Shown in pieces: positions 9,160 to 49,460 of a DNA stretch of 49,460 nucleotides (position 1 is the first letter of the stretch; each line of letters begins with the position of its first letter). The notes under the pieces are model-generated. The model searched no databases. It was not told the DNA's origin and saw only the letters and a program-made list of their open reading frames with translations. Origin of the DNA: an uncultured Saprospiraceae bacterium (GTDB taxonomy: Bacteria > Bacteroidota > Bacteroidia > Chitinophagales > Saprospiraceae); assembly GCA_937923345.1 (NCBI GenBank), contig CAKZVJ010000011.1:1-49460 (forward strand), given 5' to 3'. The position numbers and the translations under genes were made by a program.

Positions 9160-9287
9160 GCGTAAAGGATGGGAATCATACCGCCTTTTGGGGCGGTAGT
9201 CTGTAAGACCGTAGCGAACGCGGAGTGATGGACAGCCTGACCTTTGTGCTGGATTGGCGGGGAAGTTTAGGCGCACAAAGGGTACGC
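9160..9287 (+). repeat. Structured intergenic element, family 1 copy A
   Basis: The ends pair: GCGTA at 9160-9164 with TACGC at 9283-9287. Inside are a 7-bp hairpin TACCGCC/GGCGGTA (9179-9185/9192-9198), a conserved core with GACCGTAGCG and TGGACAGCCTGACC, and a 9-bp helix CCTTTGTGC/GCACAAAGG (9241-9249/9273-9281) capped by a GGGGAAG-containing loop. CCAAATA follows the element. Copies with the same plan occur at 20663-20813 and 38519-38366. It lies between convergent genes. It may be a structured RNA or a non-autonomous palindromic repeat; no protein is encoded. Confidence 0.75.
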
Positions 9288-9317
9288 CCAAATAGCCATC
9301 ATAAAAACTGACATCTA

Positions 9318-14138: not shown

Positions 14139-14308
14139 AGGGGCTGCCACGGCACTTTGTGCGTGGACGGGCTCTATCGGGATACGCTTCGCTCCTGTCC
14201 CTATATTCCGCTACGCTTCATGAGGGACTGACCTTATCAGGCCACCCTAACGATCCCTCATCTCTACGCGCGCTGCTTGTCAAGCTTCATCCCTGTGGGA
14301 CTACGCGA
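14139..14308 (-). repeat. GC-rich palindromic intergenic element, family 2 copy E
   Basis: Read on the minus strand from 14308, it starts TCGCGTAG and has the hairpin TCCC-ACA-GGGA, then TGAAGC, GACAAGCAG, GCGCG and AGAGA. The same ordered blocks occur in 39781-39970 (+). Further in are GGGACAGGAGCGAAGCG and, at the far end, a hairpin CCACGGCAC/GTGCGTGG near 14147-14165. It fills most of the 252-bp gap between the phosphoribosyltransferase and the membrane-protein gene. No credible coding frame is present, although several short frames cross it. Confidence 0.65.
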
Positions 14309-16838: not shown

Positions 16839-17151
16839 TTCGGCTCCGAAAAGTCGAGAAACCGCAAGTTTACTCTTTTGACGATATTACCCCTTTTCTC
16901 AATGAGCTGATGCCTGTGCGACAACTAGTTGGCGTGCCTGTGCGACAACTAGTTGGCGTGCCTGTGCGACAACTAGTTGGCGTGCCTGTGCGACAACTAG
17001 TTGGTGTGCTATTGCATCACTTCATTTCCAAAAGCAAAAACCATATTCAAAATAATTCACTTTATGGAGTTTGTCATTCTTCAAAGTGGCCCCATGCACC
17101 TCATCCAAAATAGTTCATTTTTTGCAATCCGCTTCTTTCCAGAGTGGACTC
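16839..17151 (-). mobile_element. MITE-like element, copy 1, carrying a tandem repeat in its loop
   Basis: Read from 17151 downward it aligns with the element at 33182-33342. It starts GAGTCCACTC, then AGCGGATTGCAAAAAATGAA and TATTTTGGATGA. Later come ATTGAGAAAA, AATATCG, CAAAAGAGT and the end GACTTTTCGGAGC. It is longer (313 against 161 bp) because of an internal partial duplication (GTGAATTATTTTGAAT) and the 96-bp tandem array at 16912-17007. The flanking 6-mers (ATATTT/TCATTT) only partly match, so any target duplication has decayed. It almost fills the gap between the DUF4442 and DUF389 genes. Confidence 0.7.
16912..17007. repeat. Four tandem copies of a 24-bp repeat
   Basis: The unit begins GCCTGTGCGACAACTAG and ends TTGGCGT. 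Copies 1-3 (16912-16983) are identical and the fourth (16984-17007) differs by one base (TTGGTGT). Each contains the 10-bp palindrome CAACTAGTTG. The array is enclosed by TGATGC (16908-16913) and GCATCA (17014-17019), the arms of a hairpin that in the other element copy has a 4-nt loop. In one frame it would read PVRQLVGV four times, but I do not regard that frame as a gene. Confidence 0.95.
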
Positions 17152-20662: not shown

Positions 20663-20813
20663 GCGTAAGGGATGGGAAGTATAGCCACCAAAGTGGCTAG
20701 TCCGAATGGATGGAGGCCTGGATGTGTGCATGAAGGACCGGAGCGGAGAGCAGTACTGGACAGCCCGACCTCCTGCCTGTATAGCTTGTAGGGAAGCCCG
20801 CAGGTGGATACGC
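20663..20813 (+). repeat. Structured intergenic element, family 1 copy B
   Basis: The ends pair: GCGTA (20663-20667) with TACGC (20809-20813), followed by CCAAATA as in copy A. Just inside is GGGATGGGAA, then the hairpin TAGCCAC/GTGGCTA (20682-20688/20693-20699). This has the same length as in copy A with three different base pairs. The core reads GACCGGAGCG ... TGGACAGCCCGACC, and the last helix is CCTGC/GCAGG (20772-20776/20800-20804) around a GGGAAG loop. A T-run of ten precedes it. It lies between the divergent small membrane protein gene and lepA. Confidence 0.8.
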
Positions 20814-20937
20814 CCAAATAATCCACTCTAAAATGAGGAAAAGCAGGGTAATTGACTAACAAAAGCTATCAAATACAGTTAATATATGGAAGGTAGACAA
20901 AATGGGATAATCCAGCCTACCACAGTATCTAAAATAG

Positions 20938-20945
20938 TATATTTG
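20938..20945 (+). promoter_or_regulatory. Possible -7 box just upstream of lepA
   Basis: TATATTTG ends 6 bp before the lepA ATG at 20952, so the predicted transcript start falls at or next to the start codon (possible leaderless mRNA). No matching TTG was found about 20 bp upstream, so this is weak. Confidence 0.3.
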
Positions 20946-20951
20946 CGGTCT

Positions 20952-22742
20952 ATGAAGAACATGAGAAATTTTTGTGTGATTGCCCATATTGATCATGGGA
21001 AGAGTACGTTGTCGGATCGGTTGCTGGAATTTACCCAGACGATTAATGAGCGGGCTATGCAGAATCAGGCTTTGGATGATATGGATATCGAGAGAGAGCG
21101 TGGCATCACCATCAAAAGTCATGCAATCCAAATGTACTACAAGCACACGGATGGGGAAAAATATGTCTTCAATCTGATTGATACGCCGGGTCACGTGGAT
21201 TTCTCATATGAGGTGTCACGATCCATCGCTGCTTGTGAGGGTGCGCTGCTGTTAGTAGATGCTTCTCAAGGGATACAGGCACAGACCATTTCTAACTTAT
21301 ACTTGGCTATCGAGAATGATCTCGACATCGTGCCTGTGATCAACAAGGTGGATATGGAGTCCGCTGATGTAGAGGTGGTGAGTGATCAGATTATTGATTT
21401 GATTGGTTGCAAAAAAGAGGATATAGTGCTCGCGTCTGGAAAGACAGGTTTGGGAGTTCCTGAATTGATGGCAGAAATCGTGGATAAAATCCCTGCTCCT
21501 AGCGGAGACCCTAAAGCGCCTTTACAAGCTTTAATTTTTGATTCTGTATTTAACCCCTACCGCGGAGTGATCGCCTACTTTAGAATCTATAATGGCACCA
21601 TGCGCAAGGGAGACCTCGTGCGCTTTGTGAATACGGAAAAAGAATACCATGCCGATGAAATCGGTATCCTACAAATGGATATGGTACCGAATAAAGAATT
21701 GAGTGCTGGAAATGTGGGCTACATCATCACAGGTATCAAGACGAGTAGTGAAATCAAGGTGGGTGATACGATGACCCTCGCTAGCAATCAGTGCGATAAG
21801 GCGATTGACGGATTTGAGGATGTGAAGCCGATGGTATTCGCTGGTATCTTCCCGCTAGATAATGACGACTTTGAGGACTTGAGAGATAGTCTCGAGAAAC
21901 TACAATTGAATGATGCTTCGTTGGTGTTTGAGCCTGAATCTTCCGCGGCCCTGGGTTTTGGGTTTAGATGTGGATTTTTGGGGATGCTGCACTTGGAGAT
22001 TATTCAAGAGCGACTGTCGCGTGAGTTTGATCAAGAGGTGATCACGACGATTCCTAACGTATCCTACTATGCATACACGACCAAGGGCGAAAAACTACTG
22101 GTGAACACGCCTACGGAACTACCAGATTCTAATCATCTAGACAGAGTGGAAGAGCCATTTATTATAGCGCAGATTATCACCAAGCCAGAATATATAGGCC
22201 CGATCATGAAGCTGACCATGGAGAAGCGTGGTATAATGACCAAACAAAACTACCTCACTCCAGAGCGGGTAGAGATGAGTTTTGAATTGCCCTTGGCAGA
22301 AATTGTTTTTGATTTTTATGATAGATTAAAATCTATATCTCGCGGATATGCTTCATTTGATTATGCTCCACTGGAGTATCGTGCATCCCATATCGTGAAG
22401 ATGGATATGCTGCTCAATGGTAATTCTGTAGATGCACTTTCTGCCTTGGTACATAAAGATAATGCTTTTGCTTTTGGTAAAAAGATATGTGGTAAACTGA
22501 AAGGCTTACTGCCAAGACAACAGTTTGTGATCGCTATCCAAGCGTCTATTGGCGCAAAGATTATCGCTAGAGAAACCATCTCAGCGATGCGTAAGGATGT
22601 GACTGCAAAGTGCTACGGTGGTGATATCACTCGTAAGCGAAAACTGCTGGAAAAGCAGAAAAAAGGTAAGAAAAAGATGAGAAGCATCGGTAATGTTGAG
22701 GTCCCACAAAAGGCATTTTTAGATGTACTGAAGTTGGATTAA
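20952..22742 (+). CDS. lepA: Elongation factor 4 (LepA)
   Basis: The start is set at 20952 ([20 protein letters not shown]), giving 596 residues, the usual length; the 22 residues before it in the frame are not conserved. It is a translational GTPase with the G1 loop [10 protein letters not shown]3 DTPGHVD and G4 NKVD. Domain II, EF-G-like domains and the LepA-specific C-terminal domain follow, ending [17 protein letters not shown]. It acts on ribosomes and is implicated in back-translocation or initiation. It is a single-gene unit with a strong terminator downstream and structured repeat B upstream. Confidence 0.97.
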
Positions 22743-41429: not shown

Positions 41430-44400
41430 TTATCTATTTATCTGGATATATCCATTGTATTTCCTTCCATCTCCTGTATCAACAATGTAGAAGTAAGTTC
41501 CATCAGGGAGATTTCTTCCATTCCAAGTACCGTACCAACCAGAATCATTGGTATATCTCTGTTTGTAATACACTTGATTACCCCACCTGTTAAAAATAGT
41601 GACCGTATTGTTTGGGAATGATTCTATTCCAGTAATGGTAAACGAATCATTGATTCCGTCTCCATTAGGAGAAATACCATTGAAAATAGTTAAATCTTCA
41701 CATAAGACATCTATATAAACTGTTGCCATATCAGAACCAAACGGTCCATATATCAAATATTGAAATGAGTCCGTTTCTCCACAGAAGTTTTGATTCGGTA
41801 TATAGTCGATGGTCCCATCATCGTTTAGATTCACTGTTCCGTTTTCTGGATTTCTTACGATAATGATAGAGTCTGTTTCAATATTAAATGTGTCGTTAAC
41901 TCCAATATTAAAATTATGCACATGCCAATTGATCAAAGTTATAGTATCATCATCCATAGCTATTGGTGGAGCTATACTACCCTCTGAAACAACTACTGAG
42001 AATACTACTAATGTATCACAAATATCATTGTTATCACAATAGACAAAACAACCTATATCATCCCCTAAAAATTCGGCAGATATATTAATACAATCATCTT
42101 CAACGTCGTAATTAACTACGTCAGTTGAGATATCTTCACAATAATTCATCACTGAAACTACCTCTGCACTCAACTCACTAATATCAACACATATGGTAGT
42201 ATCCATCCCTAACTCTAAGAAGATATCTATGGTATCTGGTGTGACTACTGCCTCAACGCACTCTACAAAGATCTTGATAGAATCTGCACAACCCGTAATA
42301 GCATCTACGACTGAAATAGTATGATCTCCTGGAGCAAGCTCCAATGCTACTGCAAATGGGACATAGTTGCTATTCAGATCGAGTATACCAAACTGACCAC
42401 TTGATACCTGAGTAATCATTAAGTCAGCATATGTATTCTCAGATATACCCCCTGAGATAGATAAATTTTCTGCATCTAAACTCCAATTCCCTAGTGGATC
42501 CCAAGTATTTAATAAATCGATGAGATCATCGAGTGTATCAAATTCTCCATTAAATTCCTCATCATTGACTCCCCATGCATCTACTGTGTACGGCCCGGCT
42601 AAACCTTGATCAGGAATGGAGAAATAAGTATATACATACGCTGAGTCATAAGCACAACCCTTAGTAGCTTCAAACTCCTTATTATTATCAAAATACAAGA
42701 AACTATCTACAGAAGAATAAGGTATATCCAAACAGTAGTTTGTCATGGACCCACAATCGTTAGAAATAATTGACACCGATTCTTCAGTAAATATATCTAG
42801 TCCCCCCTGACATTCTTCTAATGACCCACAATTTGATAATCCAATATCGTTGATTTCTAGGGTGCATCCATTAGCATCTGTAATGGTAGTACTATATGAC
42901 GCTTCTAATAAATTTGTCCTAGAGAATTCTTGATTAATGGAACTAGGCAAATCAGACCAAACAAGAGTATATGGAGCGGTTCCTCCACGGGTCTCGATAT
43001 TTATTGATCCCATATTATTCGTACAGTTTACAACTTCCAAGACTACTTCTAATTGGGCTGGCTCTTGGATTTCAAAGCAAGTTATACCTGCAATGCAATC
43101 CTCATTATCTCTAACAAGTACACAATATGAACCTTGTACCAGTTCACCATTAGCATATCTATTTCCATCAGCATCTTCAATATTCACTGAATATCCTCCA
43201 TTTGTAGTTAATACTGGATTAGTAGAAAAGTCGATCCTGCCATTATCGGCACCATGACACGAAATATGATGGATAGAGTCAATTGAAACTTCCACCTCGT
43301 CAACAGCATTTTGAAGCGCAAAATTGAGCGTATCCAAACATCCATCCGTATTCATTAGATAAACTTCATAAATACCAGCCTCTAAGTTCATGCGTGAATC
43401 TCCAGCAAAACCATCTGACCATACTATTTGAGACGGCAATACATTTGGAGCAGATATAAACACCTCTCCAGTTGCTTCGCCACAAAAAGACTCACTTATT
43501 ATTTGCACATCGCTATCTATACTTCCTACCTGAGGTACAATTATGGTCAAATAAGAAGCACAATCAAGAGCTGTCGGATCTGATACAACTACATTGTATT
43601 CGCCAGCAACTAAACTATCACGTGTTGCGCTAAGTACTCCATCCTCCACCCAAAGGTAATTTAGGTTTGATGGGCTTAGGATAACAGTACCATCATTTAG
43701 GCCACAGTTAGCTGGTGTTATATCAACCTTCGCAGGTTCGACAGCGTCAATATTGTCTATTTCAAATTCTTCTATAATTGAACATGTTGAATCTATTAGG
43801 TGGGTTATAGTTACTGAATAAAATCCTCCTCTCAGCCCGAACAATTCATTCTGACTAGAACCATAGCTACCATTATGATCACTCCAGAGGAAGGTATATT
43901 GGCTTGCATCATTTTCTAAAGTTAAATGGATAGATCCATTCATTTCTTCACACATCGTTGATATAGTCAATGCATCTACCAATACAGGTTTTTCACAGAT
44001 ATCTTGGTCGCAATCCGTTGTCTGCTCAATCGTTATCGTAATCACATCTTCACAAGAAGTTCCATCTGAAATAGTCACTTGATATACTCCACTTGCTAAG
44101 TCTTCTCTTGCAGAAGCAACAGTCGAGTCAGGCCATAAATAATCGTATGTATCAGGCATTAACACTGCTACACCATTGGCTTCATTACAAGTCTCATCTT
44201 CTAATAGGCTTAATTCGGCTTGAATATTACAGCCACAATTTTCAACAAAAACGTTAATTTGCTTTTGAACTGTGCAACTAGTGTTAGTGTCTACAATCAC
44301 AACATAATCACCGCTCATCTCAAAAGTCGCATTTAGAATAGCAGGAAATTGTTCGTTTGAAGTAAAATTATTAGGACCTGACCATGTAAAGTTTGCACCC

Positions 44401-47400
44401 CCATTCACTCCTAATTCAATAGTTTCTCCAGCGCAGATGACAATGTCCTCTACAACAGAAACATCCTCCCCTTCTAACACTTCTACAGCAATCATCTCAA
44501 CCCCCTCACATCCATTAGGACTAAGTACTGTCACTTCGTAGAAATATACACCAGTCGCTAAATCAATATTATTTATTACAGGATTTTGATCCGTGGAAAC
44601 AAATCCGTCAGGTCCGGTCCACGCATACTGACTACCTCCATCAGCAAACAATTGGAGTGTACTTTCTTCACATAAGGGACCATTATAACTTGTATTTATT
44701 ACTAATTCATTTGATACCTGAACATCAGTATCAAGTATAATTTCACATCCAGAAACTGTAGAAACCGTTACTAAGTAAGTACCGTTATTTAGCTCACTAA
44801 AGTCAGGTATAATAATTTGATTATCTGAATTAGTAAAACCATTCGGTCCTTCCCAAATATAAGTAGAGCCACCCGACACTTCTAGTATTAATGAATCTCC
44901 ATTACAAGCAGGCATATATCTAAGTAAGTCCACATCTTCACTTTCTCCAACCTCTATTTCAATAGTTGCTGTTGATTCGCAAACACCATCATTGACAAAT
45001 ACTGTCAAGTTGTAAGAACCAGCATCATCTGCGCTATAGGTAATTATATTAGATTCTGGATTTAAAATTTCTCCACCATCACTAGTCCATACAATAGAGA
45101 ATGATGTATCAATAGGACTTACTTCTAAGGATATAAATTCATCTGTACAAATATTTGTTCTATCAGTATTTATGTCTACTTCGAATCCATTTATTACGGT
45201 AATGAACTGAGTAACACTGCTTGTATTATCGCATGCATCAGATACATTGTATACGCGTGTGATTTCATAACTACAACCACTTGTAGAAGTTTCGCTGACT
45301 TCTATAGTAGGACTAGCATCACAAACATCAAAACTTAAAATTTCTACAGGGGATGGTATCTCTTCACCAGCAGCTACATTAACTGTAACATCAGCAGGTG
45401 TCGAAATTATGACTGGAGCAGATACATCTCTTACTAAGACTTCCTGGGTAGCCATAGCCATATTACCGCAAGCATCTTCAGCCCTCCATGATCTTTGAAT
45501 AATAAATTCATTCGGACACGAACCGTCTAATCTTGTTTCATTGAATTCAAATCTGATATCTGAATCGCAATTATCAATTACATTTGGTGCTGGCAATTCC
45601 GGAAGTGCACCACAATCAATTGTTAAATCGTCAGGAATATTCATAAATACTGGAGCAACATTATCTCCAACTAAAATTCTCTGCTCACTAATTGATTCAT
45701 TTCCACAAGCATCAGTTGCACTCCATGTTCGTATTAATTCAAAAGCTCCTGGACAATTACCGGGTATCGAACTTTCGGCATACTGAATAAATACATTTGG
45801 ATCACAATTATCAGTAGCCAAAACTTGAGGCATAGTCAAATCTACGCTGCCTGGGCAGTCTGAAATTATATCTGCTGGTATTCCAGTAAGTACAGGAGCA
45901 ATGTTGTCTTCAATAGTTATCAACTGTGTTTCTTCGGTTTCATTTCCACACGGATCCGTAGCTGACCAAGTTCTAAGTATTTGATAATTGTATGGGCAAG
46001 TTCCTCCTAAATTAGATTCGTTGAATTCAAGTTCAACATCACAATTGTCGGTTACCGTTACATTAGGTAAACTCGAAATATTTTCCTCGCAAGATACTGT
46101 AAGATCATTCGGCACCCCAGAAATTACAGGAGCTATAGCATCTCCTTCTACAATAATAACTTGTACAGCTCTTGCACTATTTCCACATGCATCTGTAGCA
46201 GTCCAAATTCTTGTTATGGTATAATTATCTATGCATGAAACTGATTCTATGGAGTTCATTTCCACAAAGTCAACAGTAACATTAGAATCACAATTATCAG
46301 AAGCTAAAACTAAAGCGGGTGGTGATGGAATACCACCACAATTAATGTTTTCATCTGGAGGTATATTAGATAAAATAGGTGGTGTACTATCTTGTACAGT
46401 AATCGCTTGTACTCTACTTGAGGAATTTCCACAATTATCAATTGCAGTCCAAGTTCTTTCAATAATATAATTGTTGGCACATGCTACAGGTATTGTCGTT
46501 TCATTATAAATTATCTCTACATTCGTATCGCAATTATCCGAAACATTAACTGGATCAGACAAGTTTGGTAATTCACTGCATTCAAATGTTACATTTGCTG
46601 GCACATCACTTAATATTGGAGCTTCAGTATCACCAGAAATTGTAATTACTTGTTCTGCTCTCTCACTATTTCCACAGTTATCCGTTGCGACCCATACTCT
46701 TGTGATTACATATGAATCCATACAAGATATTGTGCTCAAAGTACTCGTTTCATTAAATACTACTTCCACATTGCTATCACAATTATCAGTACCTAATACT
46801 ACTGGTGCTGGACTTGGTAATGCACCACATGAAATGAATTCATCGGCAGGTACATTTAACAAAACAGGTGCCGTGTTATCTTCTACTGTAACCGTTTGTG
46901 TACCCACTGTAGAATTTCCACAATCATCTACCGCAGTCCAAGTTCTTTCAATAATATAACTATTCTCACAAGAGGTAGGTACCGTAATTTCATCATAGAT
47001 TAGGTCTACATTTGGATCACAATTATCGGTTGCACTCACTGGATTCGTTAATGGTGGCAAAGTACTACACTCAAATGTAATATCAATAGGTACATTTGCT
47101 AACACTGGTGGTACTGGATCCCCTCCCACAGAGATATTTTGTATTGCTACTGTTGAATTTCCACAATCATCTGTCGCTGTCCACGTTCTTGTAATTTCGT
47201 AAGAATCTGTACAATCAAAATTTGGAAGTGAATTAACTTCTTCAAACTCCAGGGTCACATCGCTATCGCAATTATCAAATACCGAAAGAATTGGAGCTAT
47301 TGGTGGCACTTGACCACAATCGATTGTTAAATCAATTGGTGCACCAATGATAATTGGATCAGTAACATCTTGGATAAAAATATTTTGTGAAGCAGAAGTT

Positions 47401-49460
47401 TCATTTCCACAAGCATCAATAGCAGTCCAAGTTCTTATTCTAGTAAACGAATGAGGACAATCCCCAGGGATCGTCTCTTCTGCGAGTGTTACAGATGCAT
47501 TAGGATCACAATTATCAGTTGTGGTAACAGGGTTCCCTAATTCTGGTACCGCGCTACATTCAAAAGTTATATCTAAAGGTACATTGGCTAATACTGGTGC
47601 TGTGTTATCAGTTACATTAATATTTTGAATAGCTGAATTAGAATTTCCACATGCGTCTACAGCAGAAAAAGTTCTTTGGATTGTGTACTCTTGAGGGCAA
47701 GATCCAGAAATAATATTATCCGAATGTGTTACAATAATGTCATTATCACAATTATCAATCACATCGGGTAATTCTAATACTGGAATCACATCGCATTCAA
47801 TATCCAAATCTGTAGGTATATTACTAAAATCTGGCGGTGTATTATCTTGGATAATAAAATCTGCCATATCTTGATCTGTATTCCCACATTCATCTATTGC
47901 AGTAAATACAACTTGAATTGTGCCGGAAAGACCACATCCACTAGACAATGGTCCTGCTGAGTAACTCCAGCTTACATTTCCGCAATCTTCACTTGCACTA
48001 GCATTAGCATTGTTGTTAATCCAACTATTATATTCATCTAGATTTCCTTCACCATCACATTCTACCACTAAATCTTGAGCAGGCACATCGATCAATGGGG
48101 ATTGTGTATCTCGGATTATAAAACTTGCTGTTGTACTGCTTGAATTACCACATTCATCGGTAACTATAAAGCCTACTGACACTTCTCCTGATTGTCCGCA
48201 TGAATTTACAAAGGTACCTTCTGTATAAGTCCACGTTATACCACTACATGCATCCGTTGCTTCGGCATTTCCATTTGACGTTAACCAGGCTGCGTATTCT
48301 GCAGTATTTCCTAAACCATCACATTCTACTATCTCGTCTGATGCTTCTACAGTTATTGTAGGATCTGTTCTATCTTCTATTATAAAGCTTGCTGTTGTCT
48401 CAATAAATCTACCACAATCATCGGTTGCTATGAAGGTGACTTCTTGACTTGTACCATTTCCACAACTTACCGTTACTGGACCAAGGGTATTTGACCATGT
48501 TACGCCTCCACAATCATCAGATGCATCCCCTCCTCCATTATTATTCAACCATGCTGTAAATTCGGCTGTGTTACCCGATCCATCACATTCTACTGTCCTA
48601 TCCATTGCTGGTGATATCAAGTCCGGATCTTCTGTATCTTCTATGATAAAGTCCGCTGTAGTGCTATTACTATTGCCGCAATCATCTGTCACAATAAATT
48701 CAACAGTCACAAATCCTGTCTCACCACATCCATCACTCGACACTCCTGCATTAAATGTCCACGATACTGTACTACAATCATCACTTGCTAATGCTCCTCC
48801 GTTAGATGCTATCCATCCTTGGTAATCGGCTACGTTTCCTGATCCATCACACTCTACTGTTAAGTCTGAGGCTTCCGTTTCTATTAATGGTGGCACATCA
48901 TCTATTATTGTAAATGTTGCTGTTGTTTGCGCCGTATTTGAACACTCATCAATCGCAGTAAAAGTTACCGTTACACTTCCTGTCTCTCCACATCCATCGC
49001 TCAATGGACCAGCATTGTGAGACCAAGATATATTCCCACAAGATTCACTTGCCTCTGCATTTGCATTATTAGATAACCAAGCAGCTAATTGATCTGCATT
49101 TCCTGAACCATCACAAACAACTATTTCATCTTGCGCTGGCACATCGATTATTGGGGATTGTGTATCTCGAATTATAAAACTTGCTGTTGTACTGCTTGAA
49201 TTACCACATTCATCGGTAACTATAAAGCTTACTGAAGTTTCTCCTGATTGTCCGCATGAATTTACAAAGGTACCTTCTGTATAAGTCCAAGTTATACCAC
49301 TACACGCATCCGTTGCTTCGGCATTTCCATTTGACGCTAACCAGGCTGCGTATTCTGCAGTATTTCCTAAACCATCACATTCTACTATCTCGTCTGATGC
49401 TTCTACAGTTATTGTAGGATCTGTTCTATCTTCTATTATAAAGCTTGCTGTTGTCTCAAT
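41430..49460 (-). CDS. Giant HYR/Ig/SprB-repeat surface protein with type B T9SS tail (5' end missing)
   Basis: The frame is open to the window edge; a GTG at 49142 is only an internal Val codon. About 2,676 residues are visible. From the N-terminal side: six modules of about 88 residues with xECDGxGN...AAW...DCSGxTW and CGxSG blocks (49460 to about 47840); eleven HYR-like modules of 80-89 residues with DNCD and RTWTAxDACGN cores (to about 45200); several PKD/Ig-like modules; SprB-like modules (about 44240-42830); a mixed region; a cadherin-like module (about 41990); and the CHU_C domain from FNGISPNGDGINDSF to the end (YNGYIQINR). Such cargo is exported by T9SS with a PorP/SprF partner, here the next gene. 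It is probably an adhesin; its ligand is unknown. Confidence 0.93.
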   Translation of the reverse strand: METTASFIIEDRTDPTITVEASDEIVECDGLGNTAEYAAWLASNGNAEATDACSGITWTYTEGTFVNSCGQSGETSVSFIVTDECGNSSSTTASFIIRDTQSPIIDVPAQDEIVVCDGSGNADQLAAWLSNNANAEASESCGNISWSHNAGPLSDGCGETGSVTVTFTAIDECSNTAQTTATFTIIDDVPPLIETEASDLTVECDGSGNVADYQGWIASNGGALASDDCSTVSWTFNAGVSSDGCGETGFVTVEFIVTDDCGNSNSTTADFIIEDTEDPDLISPAMDRTVECDGSGNTAEFTAWLNNNGGGDASDDCGGVTWSNTLGPVTVSCGNGTSQEVTFIATDDCGRFIETTASFIIEDRTDPTITVEASDEIVECDGLGNTAEYAAWLTSNGNAEATDACSGITWTYTEGTFVNSCGQSGEVSVGFIVTDECGNSSSTTASFIIRDTQSPLIDVPAQDLVVECDGEGNLDEYNSWINNNANASASEDCGNVSWSYSAGPLSSGCGLSGTIQVVFTAIDECGNTDQDMADFIIQDNTPPDFSNIPTDLDIECDVIPVLELPDVIDNCDNDIIVTHSDNIISGSCPQEYTIQRTFSAVDACGNSNSAIQNINVTDNTAPVLANVPLDITFECSAVPELGNPVTTTDNCDPNASVTLAEETIPGDCPHSFTRIRTWTAIDACGNETSASQNIFIQDVTDPIIIGAPIDLTIDCGQVPPIAPILSVFDNCDSDVTLEFEEVNSLPNFDCTDSYEITRTWTATDDCGNSTVAIQNISVGGDPVPPVLANVPIDITFECSTLPPLTNPVSATDNCDPNVDLIYDEITVPTSCENSYIIERTWTAVDDCGNSTVGTQTVTVEDNTAPVLLNVPADEFISCGALPSPAPVVLGTDNCDSNVEVVFNETSTLSTISCMDSYVITRVWVATDNCGNSERAEQVITISGDTEAPILSDVPANVTFECSELPNLSDPVNVSDNCDTNVEIIYNETTIPVACANNYIIERTWTAIDNCGNSSSRVQAITVQDSTPPILSNIPPDENINCGGIPSPPALVLASDNCDSNVTVDFVEMNSIESVSCIDNYTITRIWTATDACGNSARAVQVIIVEGDAIAPVISGVPNDLTVSCEENISSLPNVTVTDNCDVELEFNESNLGGTCPYNYQILRTWSATDPCGNETEETQLITIEDNIAPVLTGIPADIISDCPGSVDLTMPQVLATDNCDPNVFIQYAESSIPGNCPGAFELIRTWSATDACGNESISEQRILVGDNVAPVFMNIPDDLTIDCGALPELPAPNVIDNCDSDIRFEFNETRLDGSCPNEFIIQRSWRAEDACGNMAMATQEVLVRDVSAPVIISTPADVTVNVAAGEEIPSPVEILSFDVCDASPTIEVSETSTSGCSYEITRVYNVSDACDNTSSVTQFITVINGFEVDINTDRTNICTDEFISLEVSPIDTSFSIVWTSDGGEILNPESNIITYSADDAGSYNLTVFVNDGVCESTATIEIEVGESEDVDLLRYMPACNGDSLILEVSGGSTYIWEGPNGFTNSDNQIIIPDFSELNNGTYLVTVSTVSGCEIILDTDVQVSNELVINTSYNGPLCEESTLQLFADGGSQYAWTGPDGFVSTDQNPVINNIDLATGVYFYEVTVLSPNGCEGVEMIAVEVLEGEDVSVVEDIVICAGETIELGVNGGANFTWSGPNNFTSNEQFPAILNATFEMSGDYVVIVDTNTSCTVQKQINVFVENCGCNIQAELSLLEDETCNEANGVAVLMPDTYDYLWPDSTVASAREDLASGVYQVTISDGTSCEDVITITIEQTTDCDQDICEKPVLVDALTISTMCEEMNGSIHLTLENDASQYTFLWSDHNGSYGSSQNELFGLRGGFYSVTITHLIDSTCSIIEEFEIDNIDAVEPAKVDITPANCGLNDGTVILSPSNLNYLWVEDGVLSATRDSLVAGEYNVVVSDPTALDCASYLTIIVPQVGSIDSDVQIISESFCGEATGEVFISAPNVLPSQIVWSDGFAGDSRMNLEAGIYEVYLMNTDGCLDTLNFALQNAVDEVEVSIDSIHHISCHGADNGRIDFSTNPVLTTNGGYSVNIEDADGNRYANGELVQGSYCVLVRDNEDCIAGITCFEIQEPAQLEVVLEVVNCTNNMGSINIETRGGTAPYTLVWSDLPSSINQEFSRTNLLEASYSTTITDANGCTLEINDIGLSNCGSLEECQGGLDIFTEESVSIISNDCGSMTNYCLDIPYSSVDSFLYFDNNKEFEATKGCAYDSAYVYTYFSIPDQGLAGPYTVDAWGVNDEEFNGEFDTLDDLIDLLNTWDPLGNWSLDAENLSISGGISENTYADLMITQVSSGQFGILDLNSNYVPFAVALELAPGDHTISVVDAITGCADSIKIFVECVEAVVTPDTIDIFLELGMDTTICVDISELSAEVVSVMNYCEDISTDVVNYDVEDDCINISAEFLGDDIGCFVYCDNNDICDTLVVFSVVVSEGSIAPPIAMDDDTITLINWHVHNFNIGVNDTFNIETDSIIIVRNPENGTVNLNDDGTIDYIPNQNFCGETDSFQYLIYGPFGSDMATVYIDVLCEDLTIFNGISPNGDGINDSFTITGIESFPNNTVTIFNRWGNQVYYKQRYTNDSGWYGTWNGRNLPDGTYFYIVDTGDGRKYNGYIQINR
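48085..49460. repeat. Near-identical long repeats in the giant gene, 1,056-bp period
   Basis: Bases 49141-49460 match 48085-48404 at roughly 97% by eye (about ten differences in 320), the copies being 1,056 bp apart, equal to four modules of 88 codons. Below 49141 and 48085 the two stretches diverge quickly, marking the edge of the recent copy. The right edge is outside the window. Confidence 0.9.

Follow-up and report, generated by a model that had tools for sequence, protein, structure and literature searches.

A dispersed, covarying intergenic repeat related to the Flavo-1 motif lies upstream of lepA in a Saprospiraceae bacterium and is probably constrained at the DNA level

Two folded elements of similar sequence, here called A and B, lie in a stretch of 49,460 nucleotides from an uncultured Saprospiraceae bacterium (the window, by which we mean the whole stretch that was analysed), and B ends shortly before lepA. 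This raises the question whether the element regulates its neighbour, encodes a structured RNA or folds as DNA. An earlier note, made from the letters of the window, described compensatory base changes between A and B, took them as selection for the fold and proposed that B could affect lepA. Our comparison of copies within and among genomes leads us to favour, with a probability of roughly 0.6, the reading that B belongs to a dispersed family of intergenic repeats of Bacteroidota, related to Flavo-1, whose fold is kept at the DNA level, and that it does not control lepA.

The base changes had been read correctly. By direct reading, the inner hairpin of B (20682-20699, + strand) pairs TAGCCAC (20682-20688) with GTGGCTA (20693-20699), versus TACCGCC with GGCGGTA in A, 7 bp in each case, and CCAAATA is common to both elements. 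The last helix is CCTGC (20772-20776)/GCAGG (20800-20804) in B versus CCTTTGTGC/GCACAAAGG in A. The inner hairpin is not one of the modelled helices; a second one, read by eye, follows at 20700-20738 (+), with GTCC (20700-20703) facing GGAC (20735-20738) in B and GTCT facing AGAC in A. The core helices that close the element were absent from the earlier note. In B these are P1 (GCGTA 20663-20667/TACGC 20809-20813, +), P2 (GGG 20669-20671/CCC 20764-20766, +; RGG/CCY across copies) and P3 (AGTA 20678-20681/TACT 20754-20757, +). They are joined by the P4 hairpin (20769-20807, +), in which CC (20769-20770)/GG (20806-20807) is followed by a T-T mismatch and then by CCTGC/GCAGG. The core is thus a three-way junction of P1 (GCGTN/N'ACGC), P2/P3 and, as the third arm, P4.

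A covariance model built from 24 copies locates both elements in full, B at 20663-20815 (+; 70.7 bits, E 9.2e-14, model positions 1-109 of 109) and A at 9160-9289 (+; 79.6 bits, E 1.1e-15). It also finds a weak third copy at 14141-14262 (-; 25.9 bits, E 0.00063), which is probably decayed, with incomplete P1 pairing. A and B start with GCGTAA(G/A)GGATGGGAA and end with TACGCCCAAATA. Their likeness is not due to chance, since the window holds two occurrences of GCGTAAGGGATGGGAAG when as many as 3 mismatches are allowed, versus 0.03 expected. Aligned copies measure 77-234 bp. The unit starts with G(C/T)GNN and is bounded by a pyrimidine on its 5′ side and by AAA on its 3′ side: in our alignments A4, A5 and A3, respectively, 98, 92 and 94% of the copies have a pyrimidine immediately before the unit, and the three bases after it are A in 79-98%. 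Two other repeats were observed in the window, a tandem repeat with the 24-bp unit TGCCTGTGCGACAACTAGTTGGCG at 16911-17006 and internal DNA repeats at a spacing of about 240 bases within an open reading frame of 2570 amino acids at 41430-49142 (-).

Does the pairing hold beyond these two elements? Alignment A2 comprises 24 copies aligned with MAFFT without fitting to the model, with the structure drawn by hand on the same sequences. A4 (43 copies from the same genome) and A5 (53 copies from congeners), both chosen mainly by score, and A3 (33 copies, nearly all from other genera) were fitted to the model, which favours pairing. In A2, 95.6% of the paired cells can pair, compared with 80.7% in shuffles and 31.0-51.4% with the partners slid, and the covariation score is 0.440 versus 0.153 (sd 0.017) in shuffles. 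Covariation persists in the 43 own-genome copies (0.710 versus 0.191 in shuffles), where 97.8% of the core cells are paired (71.5% when shuffled) and where 161 cells differ from the commonest pair on both sides and 4 on one side. The congener copies are paired in 99.0% of cells (191 changed on both sides, 4 on one) and the A3 copies in 94.1% (66 and 14). P1 is paired in 100% of cells in the 24 copies and 99.1% in the 43; its fifth pair in the 24 copies is GC in 13, AU in 6, CG in 3 and UA in 2, with zero failures. In the same 24-copy alignment the first pair of P2 is GC in 16, AU in 7 and GU in 1, and both sides have changed in all four pairs of P3. A point against the fold is that B, taken as RNA, has an unremarkable folding energy (z 0.55).

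Moreover, paired changes are seen in place, at orthologous sites of different species. Ten of the 43 own copies could be paired with orthologues among the 53 copies of the congeners G002, G004 and G005; one pair (L158/L219) was dropped as doubtful (distances 33 and 800), which leaves 9 own copies and 11 comparisons. In these, 123 core pairs are identical, 31 have changed on both sides, 2 are G-U, 5 are broken and 4 are gapped. B enters 3 of the 11 comparisons, and of the 5 broken pairs 3 are its own T-T mismatch; if B is counted a single time, 26 pairs have changed on both sides, 2 are G-U and 3 are broken. P1 alone (55 pairs) shows 10 changes on both sides, 1 G-U and no broken pair. The predominance of the 31 both-sided changes over 2 G-U and 5 broken pairs indicates that pairing was maintained in place. 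Both window copies have orthologues in G005, in a region where the coding sequences of G005 and of the own genome (G000) share 66-79% nucleotide identity. The copy at the lepA site is common to G000, G002, G005 and G004, and its P1 reads GCGTA/TACGC in the first two, GCGAA/TTCGC in G005 and GCGAT/ATCGC in G004. In three pairs (L183/L221, L176/L213 and L187/L222) the ends and most outer helices match and the inner module differs; to judge from the sequences, this looks like module exchange between copies, which could give paired changes in P3 without intermediates. In L163/L200 and L158/L219 the copies lie on the same side in opposite orientation.

The earlier claim of selection for the fold is therefore upheld as a pairing constraint, among copies and at orthologous sites, with the qualification that hairpin-templated repair could contribute. 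Taken to its extreme, such repair would make the covariation mainly mutational, with template switching (quasipalindrome correction) copying one arm onto the other and no selection for the fold. The far greater number of double than of single changes at orthologous sites suits this explanation, as do two perfectly palindromic P4 stems (25 and 26 bp). However, template switching should erase internal mismatches, yet A10, G13 and A15 are kept in 37, 43 and 38 of the 43 own-genome copies and their 3′ partners G, A and G in 42, 43 and 39. The P1 arms of B stand about 140 bases apart across a branched fold, and unpaired letters are conserved as well. We consider a mainly mutational origin very unlikely.

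The element is dispersed within genomes and patchily distributed among them. Matches to the model number at least 130 in the own genome, 125 in G005, 107 in G004 and 95 in G002, and there are none in the congeners G001 and G003. A further relative, G017, has 64 matches and other matching genomes have 4-26; 16 of 18 chosen, more fully scored genomes were positive, with at most 150 candidates scored per genome (150 of 560 in G000). Across the phylum at least 62 of 395 genomes match, a lower bound because 8 candidates were scored per genome. A pattern search among 60 relatives gave 102 places in 13 genomes, 80 of them in G017, compared with 0 in G017 and 14 in other genomes for the reversed pattern; the single pattern matches in L014 and L016 have no element start. 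Copies also occur in four IMG/VR contigs and, between genes, on plasmids of Bacteroides and Phocaeicola (5 records matched, of which 3, L168, L169 and L170, were opened). One of these plasmid copies lies near an IS942 transposase gene. No match to the element was found in phage records. Among the matches listed by a literature search by sequence none concerned the element, one of them being to a 16S primer, and the literature searched, mostly outside subscription papers, gave no earlier description of it as a DNA repeat.

Copies show no orientation preference relative to neighbouring genes. For 35 own copies with a neighbour on each side, the upstream gene runs in the same direction in 17 cases and in the opposite one in 18, and the downstream gene in 16 and 19, as judged from crude ORF calls and with background gaps taken from the same loci; the congener and A3 sets are similar. 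Excluded from the 43, 53 and 33 copies were 4, 7 and 8 inside ORFs and 4, 3 and 0 without a neighbour. In the absence of such a preference we rejected a general role in cis-regulation or as a terminator.

What, then, of lepA (20952-22742, +)? The earlier note placed B about 140 bp upstream of this gene, and indeed the likely ATG at 20952 follows the end of B by about 135 bp, the longest ORF starting at 20886. Outside the element, about 120 bases downstream of its end, lies TATATTTG (20938-20945, +), a sigma-A-like -7 box that fits the consensus TAnnTTTG given in the accessible part of PMC9723704. As judged from this motif, it is a putative promoter of lepA. The proposal that B could affect lepA, as a cis-regulatory leader, draws on the upstream copy being kept in four of the six congeners. 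Furthermore, orthologous copies lie upstream of a gene for a LepA-related GTPase in G000 (L189, 2876-3034, -) and G005 (L209, 1979-2100, +); at C134 of G004, the model and LepA-related protein matches are equally close. Set against the family's even orientation, these GTPase copies do not tip the balance. In the comparison of upstream regions the box precedes the lepA ATG in all six species, including the two congeners in which the element is missing. Since a promoter-like box stands between B and the gene, two congeners manage without the element, and a family with at least 130 matches in this genome shows no orientation preference, control of lepA by B is not supported by the sequences compared. 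We regard a leader function as extremely improbable.

Among known families the closest is Flavo-1 (RF01705), a motif described by Weinberg et al. 2010 (PMC2864571, Table 1), and from sequence comparison the element is related to Flavo-1 and is not itself Flavo-1. Rfam found only a tRNA in the window and, for B alone, a chance snoRNA match (E 8.6); neither A nor B matches Flavo-1, which has a gathering score of 42 bits. Among 20 related loci (L062-L081, one of them from the own genome), 14 have a Flavo-1 match on the element that falls short of this cut-off (32.8-40.2 bits), and so do 2 of 16 further loci (32.9 and 26.8 bits), a set that includes A and B, which are not the two. Both families are intergenic in Bacteroidota, have no consistent gene partner and share a ladder of 3 bp, an A/G mismatch, 2 bp, a GnA/GGA loop, 2 bp, a GGA loop and an AA(N)UCC stem. 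This core ladder of short helices and purine loops is present in the element (aligned in L012), and own-genus copies keep P2/P3 with its mismatches. In contrast, the element adds P1 and P4 and has RGG/CCY in place of CCG/YGG in Flavo-1. Canonical Flavo-1 copies in L081 and L095 (68.9 and 67.3 bits) share the inner ladder and lack P1 and P4, and our model R1 gave no match to them (E 0.01 and E 1).

Since Rfam files this closest family as an sRNA gene, the element might be a Flavo-1-like non-coding RNA whose many copies are transcribed and whose fold acts in the RNA, for example in protein binding or in trans. The sub-threshold Flavo-1 matches and covariation of the kind seen in structured RNAs agree with this, and in Flavobacterium psychrophilum Flavo-1 hits are reported at several 5′ transcribed regions; against it, the accessible part of the same paper also states that the hits show no preference for the sense or the antisense strand and that many of them lie outside any transcript (PMC9723704). 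An RNA gene is also at odds with the even orientation to genes and with 95-130 matches in each of four species when two congeners have none.

The wobble pairs bear on the same question. G-U occupies 8 of 1429 core cells in the own genus, measured mainly on top-scoring copies, versus 16 of 256 in the stems of 12 distinct tRNAs (Fisher p 1e-8), and 3 of 160 in 11 low-scoring copies (p 0.051 versus tRNA). Among non-Watson-Crick cells of the own genus it accounts for 4 of 18 and 4 of 12 and is no commoner than other mismatches. Outside the genus (A3) G-U does occur, in 14 of 495 cells, a point for the RNA; without two weak P3 pairs, A3 has 7 G-U versus 3 other mismatches. In folded P4 and inner domains its share is 3.2-6.4% versus 12.5-15.7% in shuffles, and folded inner domains taken separately have 6.0-6.4%, similar to tRNA. 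Scarce G-U and random orientation together favour, short of proof, a dispersed DNA-level element over an RNA gene, which we hold to be distinctly less probable and still the most serious competitor. We favour a constraint that acts on DNA or on both strands.

How would such a unit spread? In some pairs of similar paralogues the likeness is confined almost entirely to the element: L164/L188 agree over exactly the element, L123/L191 to position +5 and L032/L175 to +4. Other pairs (L159/L180 and L151/L159) also share the upstream flank, which is a second repeat. This repeat abuts the 5′ side, about 80-280 bases upstream (L159, L180, L161 and L151), and is up to 91% identical over 244 bases. Two copies in L179 (2007-2152 and 3103-3199, -) lie 1 kb apart and share 97% identity over 96 bases. 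In P4 the first contains a perfect palindrome of 26 bp, whereas the second breaks off inside this hairpin and has no 3′ arm of P1; in sequence the latter looks like a truncated new copy. The syntenic contigs that were read held no clean empty site, and no target duplication was found. MITEs and the pneumococcal BOX and RUP elements are likewise short, non-coding and multicopy with recurrent ends; they differ from our element in its 5-bp end arms, which are variable yet paired. Neither a target duplication nor a parent element was found for it.

As for the enzyme, Y1 transposases are the natural suspect because atypical folded structures, with copies elsewhere in the genome, reportedly flank subclass 2.6 genes of Bacteroidetes (PMC6006769, accessible part). 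The element would then be REP-like and owe its mobility to a RAYT-type Y1 (HUH) transposase of subclass 2.6. Like REPs it is dispersed, intergenic, able to fold and abundant in some genomes, and model matches lie within 1.5 kb of 3 of 12 Y1 loci in element-bearing congeners. This count is near chance, however (1.08 expected, P 0.096), and beside 30 Y1 loci in other genomes there was no element match at E <0.01. Y1 genes do not track copy number: G005 (125 elements) and G017 (64) have no Y1_Tnp match, the genes being possibly lost or unassembled, whereas G003 has 5 Y1 matches, some in genes with the subclass 2.6-like motif YIHNNP, and 0 elements. By eye, positions in two genomes had seemed one-sided, but once origins were placed by sampled GC skew the copies show no replication-fork bias (60 of 117 run with the fork in six genomes, excluding G114). 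A REP is a hairpin of 20-40 bp, in contrast to a three-way junction of 77-234 bp, and its GT[AG]G foot was not seen beside the hairpin of our element, which starts as described above; subclass 2.6 is said to lack the foot too (PMC6006769, accessible part). Mobilisation by such a Y1 transposase is thus unlikely, and examination of the Y1 transposases yielded no mobilising enzyme for the element. In G004, tandem TTTGTAGCACC..GGTGCGG-like repeats (L044, 1255-1390 and 1975-2115) flank a Y1 transposase gene and are perhaps its own REPs.

Dispersal, recurrent ends, covarying pairs and compensatory change in place between species are thus observed, and the following course of events would fit a repeat kept as folded DNA. 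One strand would fold on a P1 base into the P2/P3 ladder, in which purine mismatches are conserved, and a P4 hairpin that stands free. The constraint would act on DNA, either as a single-stranded fold or as a hairpin that a DNA-binding or recombining protein recognises. The unit would be copied to new intergenic sites with the help of an enzyme acting in trans, and after insertion selection would keep its fold, perhaps with some help from hairpin-templated repair; lepA would not be under the control of B.

More tentatively, it is possible that Flavo-1 and its relatives as a whole are chromosomal DNA elements rather than RNA genes, obliged to fold as a branched single strand, with stems rewritten as matched pairs, inner modules exchanged between copies and sites kept at about 66-79% coding nucleotide identity. 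If true, this would imply a fold-reading protein and a role at the level of DNA in a sixth or more of the sampled Bacteroidota genomes. For Flavo-1, an orphan RNA motif ever since 2010, a folding DNA repeat offers a concrete, testable alternative, marked by recurrent ends, near-strict Watson-Crick compensation in place and copy numbers that exceed 100 in some species, with no copy found in congeners. It also carries a warning against taking strong covariation in a dispersed bacterial motif as a sure sign of RNA. Copy-rich and copy-free congeners provide a natural experiment for the partner protein.
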